Source: Devosia sediminis (GTDB taxonomy: Bacteria; Pseudomonadota; Alphaproteobacteria; Rhizobiales; Devosiaceae). From it: 64,000 nt of DNA. Below, piece after piece: positions 1,502-15,287 of this stretch; position 1 is the first letter of the stretch; every line of letters starts with the position of its first letter. A model generated the notes under the pieces. The model was not told where the DNA came from and ran no database searches. It saw nothing but the letters and a program-made list of their open reading frames with translations. Location of the stretch: the NCBI RefSeq assembly GCF_016411825.1, contig NZ_JAEKMH010000001.1, forward strand, positions 1,116,001-1,180,000, given 5' to 3'. The position numbers and the translations under genes are program-made.

Positions 1502-2164
1502 ATGAGCGGATTTGACAGCGCCACGCCGCGCAGAGCTGAGATTTTGCCCCTGGGTGACTGCGCGCTGCTGGTGCGGTTCGGGGAGAGGCTCGACGACGCT
1601 GCCAACCAGGCGGCGCTGGTCCTGGCGGACCGGCTGGCCGGAGCAGGCATTATGGGGATCAAGGAAATCGTGCCGAGCCTGGTCTCGGTGCTGGTGCGAT
1701 ATGCGCCCGAGATGATCGGACCCAATCGGCTGGCCGGTGAAATAGCGCTGCTGCTCGGGGCCAAGGCAGCCGAACGGCAGGCTCCCATCCATGACATCGA
1801 AGTGCGGTTCGACGGCCCGGACGTGGCCGAAGTCGCGGCCGCGCTCGGTCTCGGGGTCGATGACTTTATTTTGCGCCACAACGCAGCGCCGCTGCGGGTG
1901 CTGACGACCGGGTTTGCGCCCGGCTTTGTGTATTGCGGATTGCACGAGGAGGCGCTGGTGCTGCCGCGGCGGACCAGCGTGTGGCCGATGGTGCCGGCGG
2001 GTAGTGTGTTGTTCGCGGCCGGGCAGACGGCGATCGTGGCCACCGACATTCCTACCGGATGGCATGTCATCGGGCAGACCGCGTTCCGTAATTTTCGCCC
2101 CGATGCCGATCCGCCGACGCTGCTGCGGGCAGGCGATCTCATCCGTTTTACGAGTGTGCCGTGA
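1502..2164 (+). CDS. pxpB: 5-oxoprolinase subunit PxpB (KipI family)
   Basis: 220 residues, the usual length for PxpB/KipI. With PxpA and PxpC it forms the ATP-dependent bacterial 5-oxoprolinase, which opens pyroglutamate to glutamate in the cytoplasm. The family signature is visible in the C-terminal cyclophilin-like half: TTGFAPGFVYCG, then LPRR and VPAGSV, then TDIPTGWHVIGQT. The gene starts an operon: its TGA overlaps the GTG of pxpC by four bases, and pxpC in turn overlaps pxpA. In Bacillus, KipI is known as a kinase inhibitor, but the three-gene set here argues for the enzyme role. Confidence 0.9.
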   Translation: MSGFDSATPRRAEILPLGDCALLVRFGERLDDAANQAALVLADRLAGAGIMGIKEIVPSLVSVLVRYAPEMIGPNRLAGEIALLLGAKAAERQAPIHDIEVRFDGPDVAEVAAALGLGVDDFILRHNAAPLRVLTTGFAPGFVYCGLHEEALVLPRRTSVWPMVPAGSVLFAAGQTAIVATDIPTGWHVIGQTAFRNFRPDADPPTLLRAGDLIRFTSVP

Positions 2165-3060
2165 GCGCCCGGTTGCGCATCCTGCGAGCAGGGCCGCTGA
2201 CGACCATCCAGGATGGCGGGCGCGAAGGATTGCTGGTGCATGGCATCAGCGCCTCGGGACCTATGGATCGCAGCAGTTTTGACCGGGCGGGCCGGCTTGC
2301 GGGAGCCAGTGCCGAGGCCGGGGTCGAATTCACCCAGGCGGGAATCGATGTGGCGGTCGAGGCGGGCACGCTGCGTCTCGGCTGGGCCGGAGGGGCATTT
2401 GTGATATCCGTGAACGGCGTGGCGCAGGACTGGCCGGGGAGCGCGGAACTGCATGCCGGGGACCGGCTATCAATCACGCCGGGTGCCTGGGGCAATTATG
2501 GGTACCTGCGGTTCGGCCCGGGCCTCGACCTGCCGCTGGTGATGGGGAGCCAGTCGACCAGTACGCGTGCGCGGCTGGGTGGCGTAGACGGGCGGGCCTT
2601 GGTGGCAGGCGATGTGCTGAAGCTGGTCGGGCAAGGTAAGGCGCCCGAGGCGGTGGAGGCAGCACACCGACAGGATGGGCCTATTCGCTTCATCTGGGGC
2701 ATTCACGCACGCCATTTCACCCAAAACGTACGCGAAAAATTCGTAACCGCTGTGTTCCGGATCAGTCCGATGATGGACCGGATGGGCGTGCGGATTGTCG
2801 ACGAGAACAGGGTTTTCGAGGAGGCCAGCATTCTGTCGCTGGTGTCCGACCCCATTCTGCCGGGAGACATCCAGATCCTCGGCGATGGCACGCCGATCGT
2901 GCTGATGCGCGACCACCAGCCGACTGGTGGCTATCCGCGAATCGGCACCATCATCACCGCCGATCTCGACCGGCTTTCGCAGATGCGACCAGGCCAAACA
3001 GTTGCCTTTGCACCCGTTAGCGTGGAGCATGCCCAGCACCTGTTGCGGAGCAGTGCATGA
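2161..3060 (+). CDS. pxpC: 5-oxoprolinase subunit PxpC (KipA / biotin-dependent carboxyltransferase-like family)
   Basis: 299 residues starting with GTG, overlapping the pxpB stop as GTGA. The N-terminal motif LRILRAGPLTTIQDGGR and the following GISASGPMDRSSF are hallmark PxpC/KipA features. Further on come YGYLRFGPGLDLP and, near the end, DHQPTGGYPRIGTI, both conserved in the family. It is the partner of PxpB in the ATP-dependent cleavage of 5-oxoproline. Its stop overlaps the ATG of pxpA (ATGA), so translation of the three subunits is probably coupled. Related proteins form the allophanate hydrolase subunit 2, but no urea carboxylase gene is nearby. Confidence 0.9.
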   Translation: MSARLRILRAGPLTTIQDGGREGLLVHGISASGPMDRSSFDRAGRLAGASAEAGVEFTQAGIDVAVEAGTLRLGWAGGAFVISVNGVAQDWPGSAELHAGDRLSITPGAWGNYGYLRFGPGLDLPLVMGSQSTSTRARLGGVDGRALVAGDVLKLVGQGKAPEAVEAAHRQDGPIRFIWGIHARHFTQNVREKFVTAVFRISPMMDRMGVRIVDENRVFEEASILSLVSDPILPGDIQILGDGTPIVLMRDHQPTGGYPRIGTIITADLDRLSQMRPGQTVAFAPVSVEHAQHLLRSSA

Positions 3061-3827
3061 CCAGCATCGATCTCAATGCCGACCTCGGCGAGGGCATGGG
3101 AACGGACGATGACCTGTTGGCCATCGTGTCCAGCGCCTCGATTGCCTGCGGCGGACATGCCGGCGACGCGGCGACGATCCGGCGCATTCTCAAGATCTGC
3201 AAAGCACGCGGTGTGCGTGCCGGGGCTCACCCAGGCTACAGTGATCCCAAACGCTTCGGACGGTTCCGCCTGGTCATGCCGCTCGAACAATTGCTGGGGC
3301 AGATCCGCAGCCAGCTTTTCCTTGTGCGCCATATCGCAGACGAGGTCGATGTGCCGCTGTCCTATGTGAAACTGCATGGCGCACTGGCCAACCAGACAGC
3401 CGAGGAGCTGGCTTTCGCCGTCGGCATTTTTGCCTCGATCCAGGCCATGGATCCAAAAATCGCAGTGCTGGCGCTCGACAACAGCCAGCAGGTGAGGGCC
3501 GCCAAGGCCGTCGGCCTGCCGCTGATCCGCGAGGCCTATGCCGATCGTGCCTATACGGCCGAGGGCCTGCTGGTGTCGCGGACGGAAACGGGAGCGGTCA
3601 TTCATGACCCCGAAGCGGTGATCGAGCGCTGCCTGCGGCTGGCCAAGACGGGCGAAATCGTCGCGGTGGATGGGACGGTGCTGAAATCCTCGGCGCGATC
3701 GATATGCCTCCATGGCGACACGCCGGGAGCGGTGGACCTCGCCCGAGAGGTCAGGGATGCGCTCGAGGGCGAGGGCATCACCATTGCGCCGGCGGAGCCG
3801 GAAGAGGACTTACCCTGGGACCTCTGA
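3057..3827 (+). CDS. pxpA: 5-oxoprolinase subunit PxpA (LamB/YcsF family)
   Basis: 256 residues, the normal family length. The N-terminus begins with IDLNADLGEGMGTDD, the LamB/YcsF signature. It continues with ACGGHAGD, GVRAGAHPGYSD and, in the C-terminal part, ICLHGDTPGA. The fold is a deacetylase-like barrel and it completes the PxpABC 5-oxoprolinase. It is the last gene of the pxpBCA operon; no T-tract terminator follows, but a palindromic repeat lies about 75 bases downstream. Convergent transport genes on the other strand begin ending at 3996. Confidence 0.92.
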   Translation: MTSIDLNADLGEGMGTDDDLLAIVSSASIACGGHAGDAATIRRILKICKARGVRAGAHPGYSDPKRFGRFRLVMPLEQLLGQIRSQLFLVRHIADEVDVPLSYVKLHGALANQTAEELAFAVGIFASIQAMDPKIAVLALDNSQQVRAAKAVGLPLIREAYADRAYTAEGLLVSRTETGAVIHDPEAVIERCLRLAKTGEIVAVDGTVLKSSARSICLHGDTPGAVDLAREVRDALEGEGITIAPAEPEEDLPWDL

Positions 3828-3995: not shown

Positions 3996-4766
3996 CTAGA
4001 TCGCCAGGTATTCCTGGCGGAGTTCGGCATTGTCCAAGACTTCCTTGGCGGTGCCGGCGAAGGCGACTTCGCCGGTGTCGAGGATGACGGCGCGGTCAGC
4101 CAGTTTCAGCGCCGCCACGGCGTTTTGCTCCACGATGATGGTGGTGATGCCGAGCGGCTTGATCGAATGCAGGATGCGCTCGATCTCCTGCACGATGACA
4201 GGCGCCAGACCTTCATACGGCTCGTCGAGCAGCAGGAGTTTCAGATCGCGGGCGAGGGCGCGGGCAATGGCCAGCATCTGCTGCTCGCCGCCGGAAAGGG
4301 TCACGCCTTCCTGCTTGCGGCGTTCGGCGAGGCGCGGAAAGCTCTCGTAGATCTGCTCAAGGCTCCAGCCATTGCCAGGCGAGACTTTTGCGAGGGTGAT
4401 GTTTTCCTCGACGGTCAGGCCCTGGATGATGCGGCGATCCTCCGGGACAAGCTGGATGCCGGATCGGGCAGCTTCAAAACTCTTCATCTTGTGGATGGGC
4501 TGATCGTCGAGCCAAATTTCGCCCTGGCGCATCTGCGGATTGTCGACGCGGGCGATGGTCCGGAGTGTCGAGGTCTTGCCAGCGCCGTTGCGGCCGAGAA
4601 GTGCGAGGATTTCGCCCCGGCGGATGTCGAGCGACACGCCTTGCACGATATAGCTTTCGCCATAGTAGGCATGCATATCCCGGACCGAGAAGAAGGGGCG
4701 GGTGGTTTCGTGTGTCGCGGCCTGGCTGCCGGCGGCGGTATCAGTTTGCATGGCAACAGAACTCAT
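3996..4766 (-). CDS. livF: ABC transporter ATPase, LivF type
   Basis: 256 residues. The ATPase core shows Walker A (GRNGAGKTST), the Q-loop with PEDRRI, the ABC signature LSGGEQQ and Walker B LLLLDEP followed by YEGLAP, which marks LivF-type subunits. An extra N-terminal 25 residues precede the usual start. Its ATG overlaps the stop of the livG-like gene (TGATG). It should energise import through the LivH/LivM-like channel at the inner membrane. The substrate is set by the binding protein at 7856-9214 and is not clear. Confidence 0.88.
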   Translation of the reverse strand: MSSVAMQTDTAAGSQAATHETTRPFFSVRDMHAYYGESYIVQGVSLDIRRGEILALLGRNGAGKTSTLRTIARVDNPQMRQGEIWLDDQPIHKMKSFEAARSGIQLVPEDRRIIQGLTVEENITLAKVSPGNGWSLEQIYESFPRLAERRKQEGVTLSGGEQQMLAIARALARDLKLLLLDEPYEGLAPVIVQEIERILHSIKPLGITTIIVEQNAVAALKLADRAVILDTGEVAFAGTAKEVLDNAELRQEYLAI

Positions 4767-5530
4767 CAGTGAGTCCCCCCGAGATAGGCTTCCTGCACCT
4801 TGGGATTGCCGCGGACCTCGTCCGGGGTGCCGTCGGCGATGATACGTCCCTGTGCGAGCACGGAAATCTTGTCGGCCAGCGAGAACACGACATGCATGTC
4901 GTGCTCGATGATGACCTTGGTCATGCCGCGGCTCTTGATCTTCTTGAGAAGCTCGATGGTGGTGTTGGTGTCATGGCGGCTCATGCCGGCCGTGGGTTCG
5001 TCCAGCAGCAACAGCCGCGGGTGCTGGATGAGGCACATGGCCAGTTCCATGCGGCGCTTGTCGCCGCGGCTGAGGCTGGCCGCCTGCATGTCCTTGCGGT
5101 TGAGCATGCCCACATCCTCGAGCATGTGCTCGGCTTCCTGGCGGATGCCTGTTTCGCTATCGAGCGAGCGCAGCATGTTGAGGGTGAAGGTGCCGTCGCG
5201 CTTGGCGAAGGCCGGGATCATGACGTTGTGCAGCACCGAGAGATCGGCAAAGATTTCCGGTGTCTGGAAGACGCGGGCAATGCCGAGCTGGTTGATCTGG
5301 TAGGGCTTGCGGCCGGTGAGGATCGCGCCGTCAAAAACCACCTGACCACTGGTCGGCGCAAGCTTGCCGATGATGACGTTGAGCAGGGTCGATTTGCCCG
5401 CGCCGTTGGGGCCGATGATCGCATGGGTCTGGCCTTCTTCGACCTGGAGGTCGATATCGGCCAGGGCATGCAGGCCGCCGAAGCGCTTGTGGACGTCCGC
5501 GACGTGCAGGACAACGTTGGAATTTGCCAT
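4766..5530 (-). CDS. livG: ABC transporter ATPase, LivG type
   Basis: 254 residues. Walker A is GPNGAGKSTL, followed by the LivG-typical GIARVFQTPEIF segment. The signature loop reads LSRGDKRRME instead of the canonical LSGGQ, a variation seen in part of the LivG/UrtD group. Walker B is LLLLDEPTAGM, then IIEHDMHVVFSLADKI. It pairs with the LivF-type ATPase (overlapping start) and lies 11 bases after the livM-like gene. The modified signature loop together with SRHDTN resembles UrtD-like proteins, so a urea-type or other polar substrate rather than branched-chain amino acids is possible. Confidence 0.86.
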   Translation of the reverse strand: MANSNVVLHVADVHKRFGGLHALADIDLQVEEGQTHAIIGPNGAGKSTLLNVIIGKLAPTSGQVVFDGAILTGRKPYQINQLGIARVFQTPEIFADLSVLHNVMIPAFAKRDGTFTLNMLRSLDSETGIRQEAEHMLEDVGMLNRKDMQAASLSRGDKRRMELAMCLIQHPRLLLLDEPTAGMSRHDTNTTIELLKKIKSRGMTKVIIEHDMHVVFSLADKISVLAQGRIIADGTPDEVRGNPKVQEAYLGGTH

Positions 5531-5541
5531 TTCGCCTGTCC

Positions 5542-6681
5542 TTATTCAGCCGGCTGCGTTTGGGTCTTGGCCGCCGGGGTGCCGGAGCGGCGGACGGCGG
5601 CGGCGATGCGCCGGACGCCTTCCATGATGCCGCCGGGCAGGAAGATCACGATGATCACGAACAGCAGCCCGAGGGTCAGGTGCCAGCCATCACCCACGAA
5701 CTTGCTGGTGACGGTGACCATGAAGTCGGCCATGCCATCAGGCAGGAAGCTCCAGAAGCGGGCGAGGATGTTGTCGTTGAGCGCCGAGAGGATGTTCTCG
5801 AAGTATTTGATGATCCAGGCGCCGATGACGGGCCCGACCAGAGTACCGACGCCGCCGAGGATGGTCATCAGCACGACTTCGCCCGAAGCGGTCCACTGCA
5901 TGCGCTCGGCACCGGCCAACGGATCGGTGACGGCCAGGAGGGCACCGGCAAGGCCGGCATACATGCCCGAGATGACGAAGGCCGAGAGGGCATAGGGTCT
6001 TGTGTTGAAGCCGGTGAACTGCATGCGCGTCTGGTTGGACTTGATCGATTTCAGCATCATGCCGAAAGGCGAGCCGGTGATGCGCTGGGCAAAGAAGAAA
6101 GCCAGGATCAGGAAGCCGGCGCAGAAGTAGAAGCCGGCATAGCCCGAGAGCTGCTGGCCGAAGAGCGTCGGCACAGGCTGGCCGACAAAGGTCTGGCCGA
6201 TGGCGGCGTCCAGCACGCGCGGATCGTTGAGCGTGAGCTGGAGGCCGGTCTCGCCATTGGTGATGGGCGTCAGTACCGAATAGGCGAGGTTATAGCTCAT
6301 CTGGGCGAAGGCCAGGGTGAGGATGGAGAAGTATATGCCGGAGCGCCGGAGGCAGAGGAAGCCGATGACCAGCGCGAAGAGGGCCGAGACGATTACCGCG
6401 AAGACCATTGCCGGGATGGCGTCGAGGGTCAGCAGCTTGAACGACCAGACGGCGGTGTAGGAACCGACGCCGAAGAAGGCGGCGTGGCCAAAACTGAGGT
6501 AACCGGTCAGGCCGAAGAGGATGTTAAAGCCGACGGCGAAGATGCCGTAGATCATGAAGCGTTGCAGCAGGTCCGGGTAGCCCGCGCCGAAGGGCGCCAG
6601 CCAGATCGGCATGGCCAGAACGACGATGGTGAAGCCGAGGAAAAGAAGCAGGTCGTTGCGGGACATGAACGTAGTGGGCAT
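5542..6681 (-). CDS. livM: ABC transporter permease, LivM type
   Basis: 379 residues, mostly hydrophobic, with about eight to ten membrane helices. [21 protein letters not shown] and the later [13 protein letters not shown] are conserved blocks of LivM permeases. A polar cytoplasmic tail ([21 protein letters not shown]) ends the protein. The start at 6681 lies one base from the stop of the livH-like gene; an internal Met six codons in (6666) is an alternative start. It is the second half of the inner-membrane channel of this importer. Confidence 0.88.
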
Positions 6682-6682
6682 G

Positions 6683-7714
6683 TCAGCTCTCCATCACGCC
6701 GCGGCGGCCAAGTAGGCCACGGGGGCGAACGAGTAGAATGACCACGGCAACTAGGTAGATGATGATCTGGTCGATGCCGGGAACGATGGCCTTCACCTGC
6801 GTCATCGAGGCGAAGGACTGGAGAATGCCGAGCAGGAACCCGGCAGCCACGGCGCCGGGCAGGGAGCCCATGCCGCCCACGACCACGACCACGAAGGAAA
6901 GGACCAGGAAGTCCATACCCAGGTGATAGTTGGGCGGGAGCAGGGGCGTGTACATGACGCCGGCCATGCCCGCGACCACGGCGGCAAGGCCGAACATCAC
7001 GGTGAAGCGCCGGTCGATGTTGATGCCGAGGAGGCCCACCGTTTCACGGTCCGCCATGCCGGCGCGGACGACCATGCCGAAAGTGGTGAACTGGAGGAAG
7101 GCGAAGACGCCGGCAATGACTACTGCCGAGAAGACGAAGTAAATCAGGCGCCAGAGCGGATAGGTGATGACATTGGCCTGCATGCCGAGGAAAGCGCCGA
7201 TATCGGCGGCCCCACGTAGGTCGGTCGGCATGGGTTGGGGAATGGGGTTGGGTCCGAAGATCGACTTGATGACTTCCTGCGCCACGATGGCAAGGCCGAA
7301 GGTCACGAGGATCTGCTCGGCATGGGGGCGCTTGTAGAAGTGCTTGATGATGCCGCGCTCGAGCGCAATGCCGACCAGGAGCATGATCGGAATGGTGATC
7401 AGGATCGAGAACGGCACTGAATAGTTCACCAGCACCGCACCGAAGTCGCCCAGCCAGGCCTGTACCAACGGCTCGCGTACTTCCAGCGGCGATCCCCAGG
7501 GGGAGAGCTTTGTCGGGTCGATGGTGACGGTTTCCATGGTGAGGAACATGCGCACGGTGACGGCGCAGAAGGCCCCGAGCATGAACAGGGCACCGTGGGC
7601 GAAATTGACGACGCCCAGCGTGCCGAACACCAGGGTCAGCCCCAGGGCGATCAGCGCATAGGCAGCGCCTTTATCGAGCCCGTTGAGGAATTGCAGAAAG
7701 ATGACTTCGAACAT
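6683..7714 (-). CDS. livH: ABC transporter permease, LivH type
   Basis: 343 residues with many membrane helices. The N-terminus [20 protein letters not shown] and [20 protein letters not shown] are the standard LivH opening. A family-typical [19 protein letters not shown] loop and [17 protein letters not shown] follow. Compared with short LivH proteins it has an additional periplasmic-looking segment after the second helix (about residues 45-75), as seen in longer family members. A GGAG ribosome site precedes the ATG. It is separated from the binding-protein gene by a GC-rich repeat, which may allow different transcript stability for the binding protein. Confidence 0.88.
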
Positions 7715-7732
7715 TTGATGCTCCGTTCTTCA

Positions 7733-7850
7733 CCTCTCCCTTTGGGGGGAGGTCGGCGCGAAAGCGCCGGGCGAGGGGGCCTCCTGCAAGGAAAGGCCCC
7801 CTCACCCCAACCCTCTCGCCTGGGGGAGAGGGGGCGGTTCAGCGTGCGTC
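7733..7850. repeat. GC-rich inverted repeat between livK-like and livH-like genes
   Basis: The 140-base gap holds purine/pyrimidine-rich arms: CCTCTCCCTTTGGGGGGAGG at the left and a CTCTCGCCTGGGGGAGAG-type arm at the right, with a GGCGCGAAAGCGCC mini-hairpin and GGGGGCCTCC/AAGGCCCCCT arms between them. It resembles the C-family intergenic elements at 36941, 42186 and 63478. In binding-protein transporters such stems often make the first gene's mRNA more stable; that is inference here. Confidence 0.6.
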
Positions 7851-7855
7851 GTGAC

Positions 7856-9214
7856 TCAAGCGCACATCGGGGCCGGTTCGGCCGGGCCGAGGTCGCCGCC
7901 GAAGATCGACGGATCGTAGGCCACGGTTTCGCGGTCGATTTCCTGCACCACGTTGAGCACGTCGTATTCGCTGGTCGGGCTTTCATTGCCCTGCACAACG
8001 AGAACCGACTTGATGCACTGGTGATCTTCGGCGCGGTAGAGCGTCTTGCCGTTGCCCATGCCGTCGAACTCGTGACCTTCCAGCGCCTTGATGACTTCGG
8101 GCGGGTAGAAGGTGCCGGCGCGTTCGCAGGCATCTGCGTAAAGCAGAGCCTGGACATAGGCGGTGTGGGCGGCCTGCGACGGCGGCGAGCCATAGGCGGC
8201 GCCGAACGATTTCGTGAAGGCAATGGAGCCCGGATCCTGGAGGTTCCAGTGCCAGTTGGAGGTGCCGAAGATACCCTTGACGCTTTCGCCGGCACCCTTG
8301 GCCATGAGCTCGGAGATGAGCGGGGTGACGATCTGGAAGTCCTTGCCGTTGGCCTGGCGGTCACGCATGCCGAACTGCACGGCCTGGGTGAGCGAATTCA
8401 CCATGTCGAGGCCGTAGTGGTTGAGGATCAGCACGTCGGCGCCGGAATTGAGGATCGGCGTCAAGTACTGCGAGTAGTCGGTGGCGCCGAGCGGGGTGCG
8501 CACGGCGGCAACGGTTTCCCAACCGAGGGCTTCGGTCGCCGCCTTGATCGATTCTTCCTGGGTCCAGCCCCAGGTGTAGTCGGCGGTGAGGTGATAGGCG
8601 CGGCGATCATTGCCATAGGACTGGCCGAGCACCGGCGCGAGGCCGATACCGGACTGGTAGGCATTGAAGAAGTGGCGGAAGCCGTAGCGGCGCTTGTCCT
8701 TGCCCGTGGTGTCGTTGGAATGGGTGAGGCCCGCCATGAAGATGACGCCCATTTCCTGGCAGAGACCCTGCACAGCGATGGCTTCGCCAGAGGACGAACC
8801 GCCGGTGATCATGATGGCGCCATCGCGCTCGATCATGCGGGTGGCGCCGGCGCGGGCCACGTCGGACTTGGTCTGGCTGTCGGACGAGACGTAGACGACC
8901 TTCTTGCCCAGGATGCCGTTACCCTTGAGGGCGGACGGGGCGAGGACGTTGAGCAGGCCGCCGTCGCCTTCACCATTGAGGTGGGCGATCGCCAGTTCAT
9001 AAGCCTTCTGCTCGTCGGCGCCTTCTTCGGCATAGGTGCCGGTCAGGGGCAGGTTGAGGCCAAAGGTGACAGTGTCCCCAGTGGGATTGTTGCAGAACTC
9101 CTGCGCCCAGGCGCCCTTGGTGAACATCATGGGCGCAACGCCCGTGCCGATAATGCCGGCCATGCCGGTCTGCAGAACCCTGCGGCGGGTGAGCCCGCGC
9201 GTCAAAAGTGTCAT
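7856..9214 (-). CDS. Periplasmic substrate-binding protein, LivK/HAAT superfamily, Tat-exported
   Basis: 452 residues from an ATG with a very good AAGGAGGAGA ribosome site. The N-terminus carries a twin-arginine signal (LTRRRVLQTGMAG, then a hydrophobic run ending near AWA). The mature part opens with VTFGLNLPLTGTYAEEG, characteristic of type I periplasmic binding proteins for amino acids, amides and urea. It lies at the head of the livHMGF-like operon and should deliver the ligand to that permease. It is longer than typical LivK and has a distinctive C-terminal half (TLYRAEDHQCIKSVLVVQG). The ligand cannot be assigned. The nearby but convergent pxp operon makes 5-oxoproline or glutamate-related compounds worth testing. 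Confidence 0.85.
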   Translation of the reverse strand: MTLLTRGLTRRRVLQTGMAGIIGTGVAPMMFTKGAWAQEFCNNPTGDTVTFGLNLPLTGTYAEEGADEQKAYELAIAHLNGEGDGGLLNVLAPSALKGNGILGKKVVYVSSDSQTKSDVARAGATRMIERDGAIMITGGSSSGEAIAVQGLCQEMGVIFMAGLTHSNDTTGKDKRRYGFRHFFNAYQSGIGLAPVLGQSYGNDRRAYHLTADYTWGWTQEESIKAATEALGWETVAAVRTPLGATDYSQYLTPILNSGADVLILNHYGLDMVNSLTQAVQFGMRDRQANGKDFQIVTPLISELMAKGAGESVKGIFGTSNWHWNLQDPGSIAFTKSFGAAYGSPPSQAAHTAYVQALLYADACERAGTFYPPEVIKALEGHEFDGMGNGKTLYRAEDHQCIKSVLVVQGNESPTSEYDVLNVVQEIDRETVAYDPSIFGGDLGPAEPAPMCA

Positions 9215-9406
9215 TGATCTCCTCCTTGAGGCGCGGGGCGACCGATACATTGCCGGTCACTCACCACGCCTGCCCAGTATTCGACACATTTGAAAATGAC
9301 GGCAATAGGCCGTTGTAAACACTGGCGTAATTTGTCGATTGTTGATCTGCGCCCTATCGCTTATTGTAAATTCGTTGACAGGCGACGCGTCGAGGAGGGG
9401 AGACCC
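9215..9406. promoter_or_regulatory. Divergent control region between the transporter operon and the XRE regulator
   Basis: This 192-base gap separates divergent genes. It is AT-richer than its surroundings (9285-9375) and holds two direct copies of TTGTAAA (9313-9319 and 9364-9370). The second lies just before TTGACA at 9375-9380. The repeated heptamers could be operator half-sites for the adjacent XRE regulator, since regulators of this family often control their own promoter. No match to a named operator is claimed. Confidence 0.4.
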
Positions 9407-11029
9407 ATGCGTGCACCGATCGGTTTTCGGATCAGCAACAGACGGAAATCCCTAAGGATTTCGCAGGCGGCGCTGGCCCGCCTCGTCGGTATATCGCCGA
9501 GCTACCTGAACCTCATCGAGAACAACAAACGCGACATCGGCGGGGCGCTCCTGCAGCGCGTGGCGCTGCATCTGGACATCGGCATCGACGATCTCACTGG
9601 CAATGCCGAACAGAAGCTGCTGCAGGACCTGGAAGAGGCCTATGCCGATCCGATGGTCGAGTCGTTGCCCTTCCAGGCCGACGAGCGGCGCCAGATGGTG
9701 GCACAGTATCCCGCCAGCGCCGCCGCCATGGCACGGCTGCATCGCGCCTATGCCGACGCCGTGGCCAATGCCGATGCCTATGCCGACCGGCTGCGGTCCG
9801 ATCCCATGCTGGGGCAGATGCTGCACCAGATTCTCTCCGGTATCACCGCCGTGCGTTCGAGCGCTGAAATCCTCGAGGACGTGCCTGACCTCGATGACAG
9901 CGAGAAGCAGAAATTCGTCGGCGCCATCGGTCGCGAGGCGCGGGTGTTGAGCGATGTGGTGCGCAGCCTCATCGGGCAGTTCGAAAGCACCAGCCAGACC
10001 GCCAGCCGCATGTCGGCGCTGCGCGAAATCGACGATCTCATCATCGAGCACCGCAACTACTTTCCCGAACTGGAAGGGACAGCGGTGCAGATCCGGGCGG
10101 AAGTCGAGCGGCAGGGCCGGTTCGACCTCGCGACCCTGACCCAGTATCTCGAGGAGCGGTTCGGCGTGACCGTGCGGATCGGCGGGCGACCCGACCTGCC
10201 GGATTTTCCGGGGCAGTACCGGTTTCAGCGCGACGAGCGGGTGATGTGGTTCCAGGGCACCACGACGCAGGCGACACGGCTGTTCCAGATGGCACGGCTG
10301 CTTGGCGAGCTGACGGCGCCAGACGTGCTGCGGCAGACGCTTGATGGCGCGGTGCTCACCTCGCCGACAGCGCGCCGGCTGGCGGCGCGCGCCATGGGAT
10401 CCTACCTCGCCGGGGCGATGGTCTTTCCCTATTCGCAATTCCTGGCCCAGGCCGAGGCATCGGCATACGACATCGACCAGTTGCGCCAGGCCTTCAACGG
10501 CAGCGTCGAGCAGGTGGCGCATCGCCTCGTGTCGCTGCGCAGGCCGGGCGAGGAGGGTATTCCCTTCGGCTTCCTGCGCTCAGACCCCGCAGGACGGCTG
10601 ACCAAGCATTTTCCACTGCCGGGCCTCCTGCTGCCCAATGCCGGCCATGCCTGCCCGCTTTGGGCGATCTATGGCGCGTTCCGGCAGCCGGACACGCTGT
10701 TGCGCCAGGTGGTGCGGTTCTCGGACGGGTCGCGCTACCTCTTCCTGGCAAGGACACTGCAGCACCGGCCGAACTCCTATCGCGACCAGCCGACGGTGAT
10801 TTCGGTGATGCTGGCCTGCGACGTGCTCCACGCCGATCGCACCGTCTATGGCGCGGGGCTCAATCTCTCGGACCAGAGCGCCGACGTGCCTGTGGGGCCC
10901 AGCTGCCGGTTGTGCCCGCGACGGGATTGTTCGGCACGCCAGGAGGAGATGCTGGGGCCTGGCGGACAGCGTTCGGTGACGCGCCTGCCGTTGATCCCGC
11001 AAGAATTCGGCCTTGGCGAAAACGGCTGA
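9407..11029 (+). CDS. ScfR/RamB-like XRE regulator with an inserted DHp-like helical segment
   Basis: 540 residues; the ATG at 9407 follows a GAGGAGGGG ribosome site. Residues about 8-62 form an XRE helix-turn-helix (ISQAALARLVGISPSYLNLI). The C-terminal half matches the short-chain acyl-CoA regulator family: an IrrE/peptidase-like domain (about 225-380) in which the HExxH-type metal motif is not conserved, then a DUF2083-like domain with clustered cysteines (CRLCPRRDC, C500/C503/C508). Between them, residues about 134-195 look like the dimerisation/phospho-acceptor helices of a histidine kinase, including a histidine at 140. This insertion makes the protein longer than simple ScfR-type regulators. 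Together with the signalling genes downstream it probably controls carboxylate or short-chain fatty acid use. Confidence 0.8.
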   Translation: MRAPIGFRISNRRKSLRISQAALARLVGISPSYLNLIENNKRDIGGALLQRVALHLDIGIDDLTGNAEQKLLQDLEEAYADPMVESLPFQADERRQMVAQYPASAAAMARLHRAYADAVANADAYADRLRSDPMLGQMLHQILSGITAVRSSAEILEDVPDLDDSEKQKFVGAIGREARVLSDVVRSLIGQFESTSQTASRMSALREIDDLIIEHRNYFPELEGTAVQIRAEVERQGRFDLATLTQYLEERFGVTVRIGGRPDLPDFPGQYRFQRDERVMWFQGTTTQATRLFQMARLLGELTAPDVLRQTLDGAVLTSPTARRLAARAMGSYLAGAMVFPYSQFLAQAEASAYDIDQLRQAFNGSVEQVAHRLVSLRRPGEEGIPFGFLRSDPAGRLTKHFPLPGLLLPNAGHACPLWAIYGAFRQPDTLLRQVVRFSDGSRYLFLARTLQHRPNSYRDQPTVISVMLACDVLHADRTVYGAGLNLSDQSADVPVGPSCRLCPRRDCSARQEEMLGPGGQRSVTRLPLIPQEFGLGENG

Positions 11030-11043
11030 TTGCACTCGGTCCT

Positions 11044-11135
11044 GGTCTTGTCGCGTTTTCCGAGCCGCAAGACCGTTGCCACTTTTGCTGGAAAACGCTC
11101 TAGTGGGAAAGTTCGCGGTGGGGAGACCGCGAACT
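11044..11135 (+). promoter_or_regulatory. Structured RNA linker before the receiver gene
   Basis: The 119-base gap between the XRE regulator and the receiver gene contains three perfect inverted repeats. Arms 11044-11050 and 11068-11074 pair over 7 bases. Arms 11053-11061 and 11090-11098 pair over 9 bases, and the first of these lies in the loop of the previous stem, so the two are mutually exclusive or form a pseudoknot. Arms 11110-11119 and 11126-11135 pair over 10 bases and end two bases before the first possible TTG start. No T-run follows the last hairpin, so translational control fits better than termination. Confidence 0.45.
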
Positions 11136-11148
11136 ATTGGGGGGAAAT

Positions 11149-11532
11149 TTGGCCGTCGATGTTTTGATCGCCGAAGATGAGCCAAGCATTCTGGAGTCGC
11201 TGGACTTCATCCTGCGCCGCGCAGGATGGAGCATCGATTCAGCGACCGATGGCGAGGCCGTGCTGGAAAAAGTGCGGCGCAGCCGGCCGCGGGTGCTGGT
11301 GCTCGATGTGATGCTGCCGCGGCGCAGCGGCTTTGACGTGCTCAAGACGCTGCGCGCCGATGGCGAAACCAAGGACCTGCCGGTGCTGATCCTGACCGCC
11401 AAGGGCCAGCAGCAGGATCGGCGCATCGCCGAGGAGCTGGGCGCTGACGGGTTCGTCACAAAGCCCTATTCCAATGCCGAGGTGGTGGGAGCAGTGCGGC
11501 AACTGCTGGGTGAAGATGGCGGACCGGCGTAG
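11149..11532 (+). CDS. Receiver-only (CheY-like) response regulator
   Basis: 127 residues made only of a receiver domain. The acidic pocket is AEDEP near residue 10, the phospho-acceptor is D53 in VLVLDVMLP, the conserved threonine is in LILTAKG and the lysine in VTKPY. There is no DNA-binding or enzymatic output domain. The TTG at 11149 is chosen because a GGGGGGAAA ribosome site precedes it; a TTG at 11137 would add four residues. Its end overlaps the next gene by 17 bases, and the kinase follows, so it is very likely the partner of that kinase. Unlike CrbR, which pairs with a similar symporter-kinase and has a LuxR-type output, it must act through another protein. Confidence 0.88.
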   Translation: MAVDVLIAEDEPSILESLDFILRRAGWSIDSATDGEAVLEKVRRSRPRVLVLDVMLPRRSGFDVLKTLRADGETKDLPVLILTAKGQQQDRRIAEELGADGFVTKPYSNAEVVGAVRQLLGEDGGPA

Positions 11533-11749
11533 GGTCGTCGGCGGCATGCTGGTGCTGACGGTGGCGGGTTTCCTGCTGCTGGTGCCACCGCTGGTGCAGC
11601 TCTTCAACCACCCGGTGATGTTCCTCGGCGTGCCCCAAATCGTGGTGTATCTGTTCGGGGTCTGGCTGGCGCTGATCCTCGGGACCGTGGCGCTGACCCG
11701 ACACCTCCAGGCGGACCAGATCGACCCCGCCGAAGACGGTGACACCTGA
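11516..11749 (+). CDS. Small two-helix membrane protein linked to the symporter-kinase
   Basis: 77 residues with two predicted membrane helices (about 8-28 and 38-62), a basic start (MADRRR) and an acidic tail. Its start lies inside the receiver gene and its TGA overlaps the ATG of the symporter-kinase (TGATG), so the three are translationally coupled. Small two-helix proteins of the DUF3311/DUF485/DUF4212 kind commonly precede SLC5 symporters and are regarded as accessory subunits. The LLLVPPLVQLFNHP and FLGVPQIVVYLFGVW blocks resemble the first of these. The family assignment is tentative. Confidence 0.7.
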   Translation: MADRRRVVGGMLVLTVAGFLLLVPPLVQLFNHPVMFLGVPQIVVYLFGVWLALILGTVALTRHLQADQIDPAEDGDT

Positions 11750-14466
11750 TGCTGTCCGCCGATTTCGTCATCGCCACGTCAGTCGCCTATGTTGGCCTCC
11801 TGTTCGTGCTCGCTTATTTCGGCGATCGGCGGGCGCGGCGCAACAAGCGCAGCTGGCTGCACTCGCCGGCTGTCTACACCCTCTCCATTTCGGTCTATTG
11901 CACCAGTTGGACCTTCTACGGCGCCGTGGGCAATGCGGCGCGTAGCGGCCTTGAGTTCCTCACTATCTATCTCGGGCCGACCTTGGTCTTCGTGGGCTGG
12001 TATTTCTTGCTCAGGAGACTGGTGCGCATCAGCCACCTGCACCGCATCACCTCGGTGGCGGATCTCTTGTCGTCGCGCTTCGGCAAATCGAGCCGGTTGG
12101 GCGTGCTCGTGACCTGCATCGCGGTGATCGGCATTGCGCCCTATATCGCGCTGCAGCTCAAGGCCGTGACATCGTCCATCCAGGCTGTGGCTGGTGCATC
12201 AGAATTCGGGCGGGGAAGCCTGACAGGCATTGACGATGTGGGCCTGGCGCTTGGCGTGGCGGCAGCCATGGCGCTGTTCACGATCCTCTTCGGAACGCGC
12301 CACGTCGATGCCAAGGAGCAGCATCACGGCGTGGTCGCGGCCATTGCTTTCGAGGCGGTGGTAAAGCTGGCGGCGCTGGTCGCGGTGGGGGTGTTCGTCG
12401 TCTATATCGGCGGCGGGCTCGAGGCGATCTTCACCCGGGCCAGCGACATGGGCATCGTGGTGGATACATCGGTGGCCTTTGACAGCCGCTGGATAACCAC
12501 GCTGGTGCTCTCCATTGCCGCGATCGTCTGCCTGCCGCGCCAGTTCCAGGTGACTGTGGTGGAGAATTCCGACGAGAACCACCTTCGCGTCGCCGGCTGG
12601 GCTTTTCCCGCCTACATGATGGCGATGAGCATCTTCATCCTGCCCATCGCCGTCTACGGGCTGACGGTGATGCCGGCTGGATCGAACCCCGACATGTTCG
12701 CGCTGACCCTGCCGTTGGCGGCCGGGCAAAACGGGCTGGCGCTGTTTGCCTTTATCGGGGGCTTTTCGTCAGCGACATCGATGATTATCCTCGAATCCAT
12801 CGCGCTCTCGATCATGGTCTCGAACCACATCATCATGCCGCTGGTGCTGCGCTTCAGTACCTCGGAATTGTCGGCGGACGGGCAAGGGGTGAGCCGGCTG
12901 CTCCTGGTGGCGCGGCGCTTTTCCATCGTGCTGATCCTGTCACTGGGATTTTTCTACTTCTTCTTCACACGCGATTCCGACGCGCTGGCACCGATCGGGC
13001 TGATCTCCTTCACCGCCATCGCGCAGTTCTTTCCAGCGCTGCTGGCCGCCATTTTCTGGAAGGATGCCTCGCTCAAGGCGGTAACTGCTGCGATCCTCGC
13101 CGGCTTTGCCGTCTGGGCATGGTGCTGCTTCCTGCCCTCGTTCGAGTCGGTGTCGGAATCGGTAGCGACGCTGTTACAGTTCGGCCCCTGGGGCATCGGT
13201 TGGCTGCGACCGGAAGCAATGTTCGGGCTGGAGGGCTGGGACCCGCTTACCCACGCGGCGTTCTGGAGCCTTTCCATCAACGTGGTCATCCTGACCATCG
13301 GCTCGCTGCTGACCAATCCGTCGGCGCTGGAGCGCATCCAGGCGACGGCCTTCGTGGACGTCTTCCGCCGCAGTGGGTTGCCGCAGGGCAATTTTGTGCG
13401 TGGCTCGGCGACCGCCAATGACCTGTTTTTCGTGGCCGAGCGCGTGCTGGGCGAGAAGCGGGCTGCGGCCTTGTTCGAAACGGCGGCGCGGGAGCGGGGG
13501 GTCGATCCGGCGGTGTTGGAGCCGACGCCCGATTTCATCGCCCGCCTGGAGCGCGAGCTTGCCGGTTCCATCGGCGCGGCTTCGGCGCATGTGATGCTCT
13601 CGAAGGTGGTGGCTGGCGGCGACGTGTCGCTGGAGGAAATGATGCAGATGGCCGACGAGACGCAGCAGGCCATCGAATATTCGCAGGAGCTGGAGCGGAC
13701 CTCGGCCGAGCTGCGGCTGACGGCGCGTAAGCTCGAGGACGCCAATGCGCAACTGCGCGAACTCGACAGCCAGAAGGATGAATTCCTGAGCCAGGTGAGC
13801 CACGAAGTGCGCACGCCGATGACCTCCATCCGATCGTTCTCGGAAATCCTCATGGAGCCCGGTGATCTCAATGACAGCCAGCGGCGGCGGTTCGTCTCGA
13901 CCATCCACCAGGAGAGCCTGCGGCTGACAAAGCTGCTCGACGAAATCCTCGACCTCAGCGCCCTCGAGCGTGGCGAGCGGAACTGGCGCAATGTGCCTGT
14001 GGATGCCGAGGCGGCGCTGGACCAGGCGATTGCCGTCTGTGACGCGCTGCTGCGGCAGAGGGGCATGCGCGTGGAGTTCGGCGAGCGGGCGCGGGCCACG
14101 ATGGTGGAGGGTGACGGCGACCGGCTGTGCCAGGTGTTCATCAACCTCATCTCCAATGCGGTCAAATACAACGATGCCGACAATCCGGTGGTGAAAATCA
14201 CCTCGGGAGTGAAGTCGGGCCAGTTCGTAGTCGATGTCGCGGACAATGGCCCAGGCATTTCCAAGGGCGACCGGAAGCTGATCTTCGAGAAGTTCTGGCG
14301 GGGCGTGGAGGGCGGCGGCGACCAGGGTGGGGCAGGCCTCGGCCTCGCCATCAGCCGGCAGATCGTGGCCCGGATGAACGGTTCGCTGGAGCTCGTGCCG
14401 GGCCCGCTGCCGGGCGCCTGTTTCCGGGTGCGGCTGCCGGTGGTCAAGCAGGTCGCGCCGGCTTAG
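11749..14466 (+). CDS. SLC5 (PutP-like) symporter fused to a sensor histidine kinase (CrbS/CbrA type)
   Basis: 905 residues. The first 500 or so form a sodium/solute symporter-like domain with about 13 membrane helices (RRLVRISHLHRITSVADLLS and FGTRHVDAKEQHHGVVAAIA are recognisable blocks). A coiled linker (about 630-675) leads to a HisKA domain with the phospho-acceptor H685 in SHEVRTPMTSI, then a HATPase domain with N-box INLISNAVKYN, G1 DVADNGPGIS and G2 GGAGLGLAIS. No receiver or PAS domain is evident. In known relatives (CrbS, CbrA) the symporter part senses or transports acetate or histidine. The ligand here is unknown, but pairing with an ScfR-like regulator suggests a short carboxylate. 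Confidence 0.9.
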   Translation: MLSADFVIATSVAYVGLLFVLAYFGDRRARRNKRSWLHSPAVYTLSISVYCTSWTFYGAVGNAARSGLEFLTIYLGPTLVFVGWYFLLRRLVRISHLHRITSVADLLSSRFGKSSRLGVLVTCIAVIGIAPYIALQLKAVTSSIQAVAGASEFGRGSLTGIDDVGLALGVAAAMALFTILFGTRHVDAKEQHHGVVAAIAFEAVVKLAALVAVGVFVVYIGGGLEAIFTRASDMGIVVDTSVAFDSRWITTLVLSIAAIVCLPRQFQVTVVENSDENHLRVAGWAFPAYMMAMSIFILPIAVYGLTVMPAGSNPDMFALTLPLAAGQNGLALFAFIGGFSSATSMIILESIALSIMVSNHIIMPLVLRFSTSELSADGQGVSRLLLVARRFSIVLILSLGFFYFFFTRDSDALAPIGLISFTAIAQFFPALLAAIFWKDASLKAVTAAILAGFAVWAWCCFLPSFESVSESVATLLQFGPWGIGWLRPEAMFGLEGWDPLTHAAFWSLSINVVILTIGSLLTNPSALERIQATAFVDVFRRSGLPQGNFVRGSATANDLFFVAERVLGEKRAAALFETAARERGVDPAVLEPTPDFIARLERELAGSIGAASAHVMLSKVVAGGDVSLEEMMQMADETQQAIEYSQELERTSAELRLTARKLEDANAQLRELDSQKDEFLSQVSHEVRTPMTSIRSFSEILMEPGDLNDSQRRRFVSTIHQESLRLTKLLDEILDLSALERGERNWRNVPVDAEAALDQAIAVCDALLRQRGMRVEFGERARATMVEGDGDRLCQVFINLISNAVKYNDADNPVVKITSGVKSGQFVVDVADNGPGISKGDRKLIFEKFWRGVEGGGDQGGAGLGLAISRQIVARMNGSLELVPGPLPGACFRVRLPVVKQVAPA

Positions 14467-14468
14467 CT

Positions 14469-15287
14469 TCAGCCCTCGCCTTCATCGGGAATGTTGAGCA
14501 GGTGGCCGCAGGCCTTGCAGTGGACGGCGTCGTGGTCATGACGAGTGAGCCCGCATTGTGGGCAAGGGAAATGCACCTTGATCGGGCGGAAGACGAGCTG
14601 CGCCAGACGGACGAACAGCGAAATGCCGATGATCATCACCACCACCGACGTCAGCTTGCCAAAGGTGCCCGGCAGCACGATGTCGCCAAAGCCGGTGGTC
14701 GTCATGGTGGTGACGGTGAAGTAGAGCGCGTCGACATAGCCCTCGATGCCGGCGTCGCGATCGATGAAGGCGGTATAGATGAAACCCGAGACGACGAAGA
14801 TGAAGACCAGGAGATTGATCGTCGCCTGGATCGTCTCGCGATAGGCTTTGAGGCCCCACTTGTTGAGATTGTGCCAGACGAGGCTGCTGCGGCTGAGGGT
14901 CCAGAGCCGGAGGATGCGCAGGAAGCCGAGGTTGAAGAACCAGGTAGGCAGCAAGAGCGTGATCAGGATGAAGATGTCGACGATAACAGGCATCTGGCCG
15001 AGCCAGCGCAACGGATGGTTCGAGGCGAGGCCCCGGGCAGCCAGATCGAGTGCCAGGATGGCTGCGATCGAATAGTCGATCCACAGGAAAACCTCGTCGT
15101 CCCGCAGGATCGGCGTGGCGATGAAGAAGGCGATGATCGCCAGATCGACGATGAGGATGAACGACTGGAAGCGCAGGGCGGCCGGCGTCTGACCGTGATA
15201 GAGGACGCGCAAATGCGACCGGAGCCGACCGAAGCCGCTCAGATCCTCGCCTTCAGGTGCTGCATCAGGTTTGCTGGTGTCGGCCAC
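14469..15287 (-). CDS. Voltage-gated-type potassium channel with C-terminal zinc ribbon
   Basis: 272 residues with six membrane segments. S4 is recognisable by spaced arginines (FLRILRLWTLSRSS). The pore helix and filter read YFTVTTMTTTGFGDIVL, so the filter is TGFGD instead of TGYGD. S6 (VVVMIIGISLFVRLAQLVF) follows. The cytoplasmic tail ends with a four-cysteine ribbon (CPQC ... CKAC, 11 residues between the pairs) and an acidic end. The gene converges on the symporter-kinase with only two bases between stop codons. It probably conducts potassium across the inner membrane; the ribbon may bind zinc and regulate gating or assembly. Confidence 0.85.
   Translation of the reverse strand: MADTSKPDAAPEGEDLSGFGRLRSHLRVLYHGQTPAALRFQSFILIVDLAIIAFFIATPILRDDEVFLWIDYSIAAILALDLAARGLASNHPLRWLGQMPVIVDIFILITLLLPTWFFNLGFLRILRLWTLSRSSLVWHNLNKWGLKAYRETIQATINLLVFIFVVSGFIYTAFIDRDAGIEGYVDALYFTVTTMTTTGFGDIVLPGTFGKLTSVVVMIIGISLFVRLAQLVFRPIKVHFPCPQCGLTRHDHDAVHCKACGHLLNIPDEGEG

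Follow-up and report, generated by a model that had tools for sequence, protein, structure and literature searches.

In two-component systems, the response regulator usually carries the output and the kinase carries the DHp domain. In the Spo0F/Spo0B system, a stand-alone receiver acts on a phosphotransfer protein of the DHp type that has no active CA domain, and Spo0B hands the phosphoryl group to a DNA-binding response regulator. Here we describe a locus of Devosia sediminis that likewise combines a stand-alone receiver (REC) with a DHp lacking a CA domain, although here the DHp would sit in the DNA-binding protein itself, an ScfR/PrpR-type XRE regulator (REG). The locus lies in a stretch of 64,000 nucleotides (“the window”; contig NZ_JAEKMH010000001.1, positions 1,116,001 to 1,180,000 of the forward strand) of a 4.09-Mb genome. 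It also encodes a two-helix membrane protein (TM2) and a histidine kinase fused to an SLC5 domain (HK); all four genes reported in the first-pass annotation of this DNA are present, on the + strand, and a five-gene UrtABCDE-like ABC transporter operon is divergent from REG (Table 1). We propose a two-component pathway with its output on the transmitter side, in which the signal would run from HK via REC and the DHp of REG to the uptake operon, and we hold this reading to be probable rather than certain.

Published sources are cited by PMC number and drawn on in excerpt. The kinase most similar in plan to HK is that of CbrXA/CbrB of Pseudomonas, an SLC5-STAC-DHp-CA protein with a small overlapping two-helix gene directly upstream; CbrX is bound to, and packs on, the SLC5 domain of CbrA (PMC13022988). 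Unlike HK, in which PAS is not matched, CbrA has a PAS domain, and its response regulator has AAA+ and HTH domains, whereas HK is paired with a receiver that has no further domain, and a separate ScfR protein bearing a DHp would provide the output. CrbS/CrbR (acetate) and RpuS/RpuR (pyruvate) also include SLC5-STAC kinases tied to monocarboxylate use (PMC9100948, PMC5715377), but in these systems the kinase is a hybrid with its own C-terminal REC and the response regulator is of the LuxR type; neither feature occurs here. With a partner receiver that has no DNA-binding output, the locus belongs to neither CrbS/CrbR nor CbrA/CbrB.

On the regulator side, REG shares with the ScfR/IsaR family (PrpR, RamB, and PccR) an HTH followed by IrrE-N-like and ScfRs domains, four Fe-S cysteines, part of the CoA pocket, paired boxes, and a gene beside its target (PMC6765138, PMC10370305). 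It differs in having a DHp between the HTH and the acyl-CoA half, L205 in place of PrpR F155, and REC and HK as partners. Paracoccus RamB has an 18-bp spacer between its two boxes (PMC10370305), whereas the REG boxes are 31 to 32 or 41 to 43 bp apart, start to start. MrrA of Alphaproteobacteria is likewise an output-less receiver in a relay, but its links are to PhyR and to the general stress response, and the excerpted text mentions no DHp transcription factor (PMC5964349). Among open-licence PMC papers, we found no description of a DHp-bearing ScfR/XRE regulator or of this gene set, although the ScfR classification of Carter and Alber (2015) may name such a class; the excerpted part of PMC12632250 does not mention such a system.

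The DHp segment of REG

REG is a member of the ScfR/IsaR family, with Pfam matches to HTH_3 (3.8e-12), Peptidase_M78/IrrE-N-like (9.7e-8), and ScfRs (PF09856; 7.5e-43; 146.5 bits against a cut-off of 24). The segment between the HTH and the acyl-CoA part had been called DHp-like in the first-pass annotation, and family-wide comparisons bear this out. The HisKA match in the window REG is below threshold (residues 135 to 188; E of 0.0064; 17.0 versus a cut-off of 26.9 bits); HisKA is matched in 14 of 23 family members, the window REG included, at an E of ≤0.1 (best, 9.6e-10). A profile of the family also aligns to the DHp domains of the sensor kinase 2C2A (HK853; 3e-4) and DivL (0.0011). In an AF2 model of REG (85 sequences; mean pLDDT of 88), the segment is predicted to form a helical hairpin (133 to 158/164 to 199), with block pLDDT values of 74 to 95 over residues 131 to 190 and 55 over residues 191 to 200. 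His140 of REG aligns with H685 of HK.

The nearest relative of this segment is the DHp of the partner kinase. The window genome encodes 30 other HisKA proteins; among the 29 that were compared with the segment, HK scored best (alignment score of 101; next, 59), and HK was also the best match in 52 of 52 orthologues by alignment score and in 50 of 52 by ungapped helix 1 score. Judged by sequence, the REG DHp is derived from, or maintained like, the DHp of HK. Because it is nearest to the kinase's own DHp, the segment is the likely contact point for REC, and the predicted REC-to-REG link via the DHp is well supported by comparison.

Residue conservation was followed in 85 nonredundant loci with a DHp-type REG, after seven identical loci had been dropped and 42 loci with DHp-less ScfR proteins had been set aside as paralogues. 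Position 0 of the DHp is His in 77 REGs (Q in four, F in two, and Y in two), the docking-side residues R+10 and S+11 are each present in 78, and I+15 is present in 84. The residue at H+1 is acidic in 14 of the 85 REGs (Q in the window REG) versus 89 of 89 scorable HKs. According to the excerpted text of PMC3510030, HisKA proteins require the acid at H+1 solely for autokinase activity and the T/N at H+4 solely for phosphatase activity. HATPase_c was not matched in the window REG or in the families shown for 23 REG members. REG is thus not a kinase, since it has no CA domain and the H+1 acid is mostly missing; what its DHp appears to retain is what a receiver needs, namely, docking, back-transfer to the His, or dephosphorylation. 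Covariation of docking residues between REG and HK was higher for own pairs (11.51) than for shuffled pairs (11.20), with 1 of 1,000 shuffles as high, but relatedness is still contained in this comparison, and it is not used as support.

Partner genes, distribution, and gene arrangement

Response_reg is the sole Pfam match in REC. In 85 of 85 aligned receivers, the acidic pair, the phospho-acceptor Asp, and the Lys are invariant, and the switch position is T (80) or S (5). None of the 85 has a C-terminal output domain, with at most 28 residues following the receiver domain, in agreement with the earlier description of an output-less response regulator. No DNA-binding response regulator was found in place of REC, though not every neighboring gene was annotated. 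TM2 shares its topology, gene position, and overlap with CbrX, but its sequence match to CbrX (10ed_X; E of 6.1) is not significant. In HK, Pfam matched HisKA and HATPase_c and did not match PAS or a C-terminal receiver. Pfam SSF has no match in the window HK and matches one of six family members. The SLC5-STAC assignment is nevertheless right, since the HK profile matches the CbrA SLC5-STAC structure 10ED (positions 5 to 616) at 1e-102, and the kinase had accordingly been read correctly as SLC5 fused.

REC, TM2, and HK overlap as had been described, with the start of TM2 (11516) within REC and the start of HK (11749) within the stop codon of TM2. REG had been placed directly upstream on the same strand. 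The strand holds, but 119 nt separate REG from REC, so REG may be transcribed separately from the other three genes. The four genes had been presented as the whole unit, which omits the divergent UrtABCDE-like operon (3996 to 9250, − strand); this operon is conserved and is part of the same unit as REG-REC-TM2-HK.

The four-gene system is real and widely conserved, and the co-occurrence that the first-pass annotation had asked about extends far outside the genus. REG is found at an E of <1e-190 in 55 of 61 genomes of the same genus (own genome included), and REG and HK occur in five other families of the order. Loci L061 to L066 have the same gene order and a divergent UrtA-like gene, with the unit split by a contig end in one genome (L061/L062). 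An evenly spread sample of 385 genomes of the class was searched with few candidates scored per genome, and counts were taken from the matches listed and the loci read. Among these matches, a DHp-type REG is present in at least 45 genomes (own genome included), a nonhybrid SLC5 kinase in at least 53, and both in at least 44. Loci were read for 41 of the 45 REGs, and the other four are full-length matches in genera already read. The sole genome with REG and without an SLC5 kinase among the 45 listed, G164, is 68% complete. Its REG is on a 3.6-kb contig (L167), on which a convergent kinase-like frame of another kind directly follows REG and the contig then ends.

A phylum sample of 398 genomes gave full-length REG matches in seven (own genome included), all of the same class. 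Rubrivivax and one Burkholderiales metagenome-assembled genome (MAG) carry the unit, and Lautropia, Rhodocyclus, and another Burkholderiales MAG carry REG (several of these titles are MAG names); we take all of these to be Betaproteobacteria. In a kinase tree of 84 rows, 54 of the 56 members of one clade are REG linked. The second group, of 28, consists of nine kinases without REG, six from loci with an SSF symporter, four from the six split units described below, four others (Sneathiella type and Kiloniella type), and five that are REG linked. Loci L158 to L166 hold SLC5 kinases without a visible REG; in L161 and L166, the two kinase loci without REG that were inspected for intervening genes, an RNase_T exonuclease protein lies between REC and HK (PAS also in L161), which makes theirs a different arrangement.

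Divergent from REG, the 85 loci have a UrtA-like gene (71), an SSF symporter (7), or neither (4), and in 3 the contig is too short, such that a transporter is present in 78 of 82 assessable loci. The SSF symporter replaces the ABC operon in L169, L172, L174, L216, L218, L222, and L224. The REG of L174 has a canonical HELRT H-box. The kinase follows REG on the same strand in 63 loci (plus 1 with an insert), is convergent in 3, is elsewhere in the locus in 2, is outside the locus in 10, and is cut off by the contig in 6; it is adjacent to REG in 67 of the 79 loci with enough sequence. In none of the 42 DHp-less ScfR loci was TM2 or a standard receiver found, and an SLC5 kinase is within reach only in L062, where it belongs to the DHp-type REG on L061.

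In six genomes with split units (G467, G311, G322, G217, G435, and G101), the transporter is found beside REG, and another site in the genome carries both REC and HK, with TM2 detected in four of the six. In G101 and G435, REG has a receiver nearby (adjacent in G101 and at ~3 kb in G435) despite its separation from the kinase unit, and these receivers resemble the window REC more than the kinase-side ones do (scores of 118 versus 93 and 120 versus 88, respectively). That a receiver rather than the kinase unit lies near REG in both genomes speaks against direct contact of the REG DHp with HK, whether in mixed four-helix bundles or through phosphorylation of REG by HK, with REC as a sink or feedback branch. 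Such contact would fit the closeness of the two DHp segments and the fact that DHp domains dimerize, but HK is membrane bound whereas REG has no membrane part, and we consider it highly improbable.

Several observations weigh against the proposed pathway. Nine sampled genomes have a kinase of this kind without a DHp-type REG among the matches listed; the kinase is not adjacent to REG in 12 of 79 assessable loci; and L142 has the order REG-TM2-HK, with no REC found. His140 is lost in 8 of 85 REGs, through at least five changes on a FastTree phylogeny of REG without the DHp columns, and in two of these loci (L063 and L224), REC is still adjacent, which indicates that a phospho-His is not indispensable. 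Loss of the His tracks loss of REC adjacency (6 of 11 unlinked versus 2 of 72 linked loci; Fisher test, 3e-5). This comparison leaves out two of the 85 loci that are cut by contig ends (L196 and L214) and counts L167 as linked, on account of a receiver-like frame 1.7 kb away; that contig ends early, and the nearby kinase is non-SLC5 by score (90 bits). A lineage-controlled version of the test was not significant, with too few independent pairs (~1.8 agree, 0.1 disagree, and 3.2 tie). The link between His loss and REC unlinking is therefore suggestive.

These losses would fit a reading in which REC~P, or REC, docks without phosphotransfer. REC would then be an allosteric ligand of the REG DHp, H140 and the T/S/N at H+4 would serve binding or REC~P dephosphorylation, and there would be no phospho-REG signal. 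The DHp segment is retained in the eight REGs without the His, the phosphatase-type residue at H+4 is kept in 81 of the 85, and DHp columns are ≥98% filled in every one of the 85 REGs, which were selected for the presence of a DHp; these observations speak for docking alone. However, the conservation of His140 (0.91) is far above that of its neighbors at −1 and +1 (0.28 and 0.36), and REC is no longer adjacent to REG in six of the eight His-less cases. We regard docking alone as unlikely, though as an alternative to be taken seriously, and phosphotransfer from REC to His140, as in the proposed pathway, as likely.

The acyl-CoA half of REG, operator boxes, and candidate ligand

Residues ~200 to 517 of REG correspond to Mycobacterium tuberculosis PrpR in sequence (phmmer, 3.4e-54) and in fold (Foldseek, 1.7e-24). 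Of the Fe-S cysteines, C416 is present in 81 of 85 REGs and C500, C503, and C508 are present in 82 of 85 (C-X2-C-X4-C plus a distal Cys). Seven CoA-contacting positions were mapped from PrpR to REG by counting by hand along the alignment: four are kept (PrpR F240, H319, R338, and K347, equivalent to REG F293, H372, R391, and K400), and the equivalents of K217, K410, and F155 (REG positions 270, 463, and 205) differ. In PrpR, the stretch 81 to 154 is not visible in the structure; the helix that follows it contains Phe155, confers selectivity for the acyl-CoA, and has been proposed to displace the HTH domains (excerpts of PMC6765138). The DHp of REG thus sits at the signaling joint.

The four retained CoA-contacting positions and the full set of Fe-S cysteines in the window REG would also suit a regulator that answers only acyl-CoA, with the DHp as a relic or plain dimerization spacer and the linkage to the kinase reflecting shared physiology. 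But the His and the docking side of the segment are conserved, and REG and the kinase co-occur near strictly among the matches listed. Furthermore, it is the IrrE-N-like/acyl-CoA half that is truncated in 12 of the 85 REGs (<60% of residues 225 to 330), whereas the DHp is complete in all members of this DHp-defined set and all 12 keep the DHp with its His. We consider a relic or spacer very improbable.

Upstream of REG, TGTAAA occurs in 76 of 83 regions, versus 12.1 expected, in the form YTGTAAA. Pairs of boxes are spaced 31 to 32 bp apart (21 same-orientation pairs) or 41 to 43 bp apart (11 same orientation and 10 inverted). A whole-genome search for TGTAAA-N25/26-TGTAAA in 22 chosen genomes with a DHp-type REG gave 24 hits, versus 12 for a reversed control pattern, and 15 of the 24 are just upstream of REG, one each in 15 genomes. 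Seven of the 22 genomes, the window genome included, have no perfect pair at REG. In the window, the two perfect boxes (9313 and 9364) are 51 bp apart, and a degenerate box at 9332 is 32 bp before the second. As the pair hits are mostly at the REG locus, the target would be local, comprising REG itself and the transporter; the pattern of boxes makes the REG promoter and the divergent transporter operon the likely targets of REG.

The first-pass annotation had proposed a circuit from kinase to receiver to ScfR-type regulator that would couple sensing of a carboxylate to control of its use. The co-occurring gene set supports the circuit, but the likely conserved target is the divergent transporter operon with the REG promoter rather than carboxylate use in general. 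The paired operator is mostly at the REG locus, and a DHp-less ScfR paralogue lies beside isocitrate lyase in the same genome. This paralogue (L353:3015-6179, G000:C11) is divergent from an isocitrate lyase gene that scores above the cut-off, and directly before it is one of the 24 pair hits. The two genes are a RamB-like pair; the paralogue fits RamB better by position than REG does, yet at 394 bits it is below the NCBIfam equivalog cut-off of 700. REG itself, at 304 bits, was rejected as RamB. An ScfR paralogue in G151 with a 1,073-residue frame was rejected as a fusion, being by eye an ordinary ScfR behind an upstream open frame; it is divergent from a gene resembling, by eye, propionyl-CoA carboxylase beta (L366), a PccR-like position.

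A firm label of urea transporter was rejected for the divergent operon, since the UrtA-, UrtB-, UrtC-, UrtD-, and UrtE-like proteins all score below the NCBIfam urea cut-offs. The solved binding proteins nearest to the UrtA-like protein are labeled as binding branched-chain amino acids. In L175, L176, L179, L203 (Maritalea), and L204 (Pelagibacterium), an acetate-CoA ligase gene that scores above the curated cut-off is located either after UrtE or before REC; L063 and L217 have propionate-CoA-ligase-like genes below the cut-off, and the hit in L140 is malonyl-CoA-synthase-like. The acs gene of the window genome lies elsewhere. A carboxylate had been suggested as the signal. Our best guess, by analogy, is that the sensed and imported carboxylate would be acetate or a close relative, because of the acetyl-CoA synthetase synteny in other lineages and the precedent of CrbS. 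We are not aware of any ABC-type importer for acetate or for similar short-chain acids.

The REC leader contains a hairpin with a GGGGAG-type loop that 28 of 30 same-genus loci share and whose stem shows compensatory changes; the two leaders without it were left out of the fold. A word of this hairpin, GGGGAGACC, also occurs directly before the REG start codon. The hairpin may control translation of the REC-TM2-HK genes. The neighbors of the ABC operon include 5-oxoprolinase-like genes (PxpC- and PxpA-like; 2161 to 3827), and on the opposite strand after HK is an Ion_trans_2 ion channel (14469 to 15287) with a possible C-terminal zinc ribbon, below the cut-off. The channel is also present at seven other loci, none of them outside Devosia and its closest relatives.

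Table 1. Features of the REG locus, in window coordinates
Feature	Position	Strand	Evidence
REG, ScfR/PrpR-type XRE regulator, 540 aa; HTH, DHp, IrrE-N-like, and ScfRs with Fe-S Cys C416, C500, C503, C508	9407..11029	+	Pfam, PrpR structures, AF2
DHp (HisKA-type) domain of REG, residues ~127-193; His140 codon 9824-9826	9785..9985	+	HisKA matches in family, helical hairpin, His conservation
REC, stand-alone receiver, no output domain; TTG start (11149, likeliest)	11149..11532	+	Response_reg, 2.2e-26
TM2, two-helix membrane protein, CbrX-like position and topology	11516..11749	+	ORF overlapping REC and HK; alignment of 12 family members
HK, SLC5-STAC-DHp-CA histidine kinase, nonhybrid; phospho-acceptor His685	11749..14466	+	HisKA, HATPase_c, CbrA structure 10ED
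UrtA-like substrate-binding protein of divergent ABC transporter	7856..9250	-	Peripla_BP_6, 7.6e-68
UrtBCDE-like permeases and ATPases	3996..7714 (6683-7714, 5542-6681, 4766-5530, 3996-4766)	-	All under urea-transporter cut-offs
Candidate operator box TTGTAAA	9313..9319	+	TGTAAA enrichment upstream of REG in relatives
Degenerate box TTGTCGA, 32 bp before next box, read by eye	9332..9338	+	31-32 is the commonest box spacing in relatives
Candidate operator box TTGTAAA	9364..9370	+	TGTAAA enrichment upstream of REG in relatives
Hairpin in REC leader	11110..11135	+	28/30 same-genus loci, compensatory stem changes

Proposed pathway

From the gene order, co-occurrence, domain identities, DHp kinship, conserved residues, and conserved boxes, we infer docking, phosphotransfer, a ligand, and binding of REG to the boxes, in a pathway that would run as follows. 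HK, with TM2 as a CbrX-like subunit, would detect an extracellular monocarboxylate (probably acetate or a closely related compound) and phosphorylate the stand-alone REC. REC~P would then dock on the DHp of REG by the same surface that it uses for docking on HK, and in most lineages the phosphoryl group would probably be passed to, or exchanged with, His140 of REG, in a manner comparable to transfer from Spo0F to Spo0B. Docking would move the joint between the sensor half and the HTH, where PrpR is proposed to carry the acyl-CoA signal, such that REG may integrate an outside signal (REC~P) with an inside signal (acyl-CoA and Fe-S state). REG would act at the pairs of YTGTAAA boxes in the intergenic region that separates it from the divergent transporter operon and so control monocarboxylate uptake.

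Whether the locus represents a reversed class of two-component system is more doubtful, although it is a possibility worth stating. In such a class, found in Alphaproteobacteria and some Betaproteobacteria, the output would be fused to a DHp that arose as a copy of the one in the partner kinase, a free receiver would phosphorylate it, an external phospho-signal would be joined to an internal acyl-CoA/Fe-S signal, and the regulated transporter may be an ABC importer of acetate or a related short-chain acid.

If correct, the pathway would explain how an output-less receiver beside a transceptor kinase reaches DNA, and it would provide a natural case of duplication of a specificity surface, in a metabolic transcription factor with a kinase-like DHp that has kept the phospho-acceptor His and mostly lost the autokinase residue. 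It would also give a testable function and substrate class to a widespread UrtABCDE-like transporter that resembles importers of urea and branched-chain amino acids.

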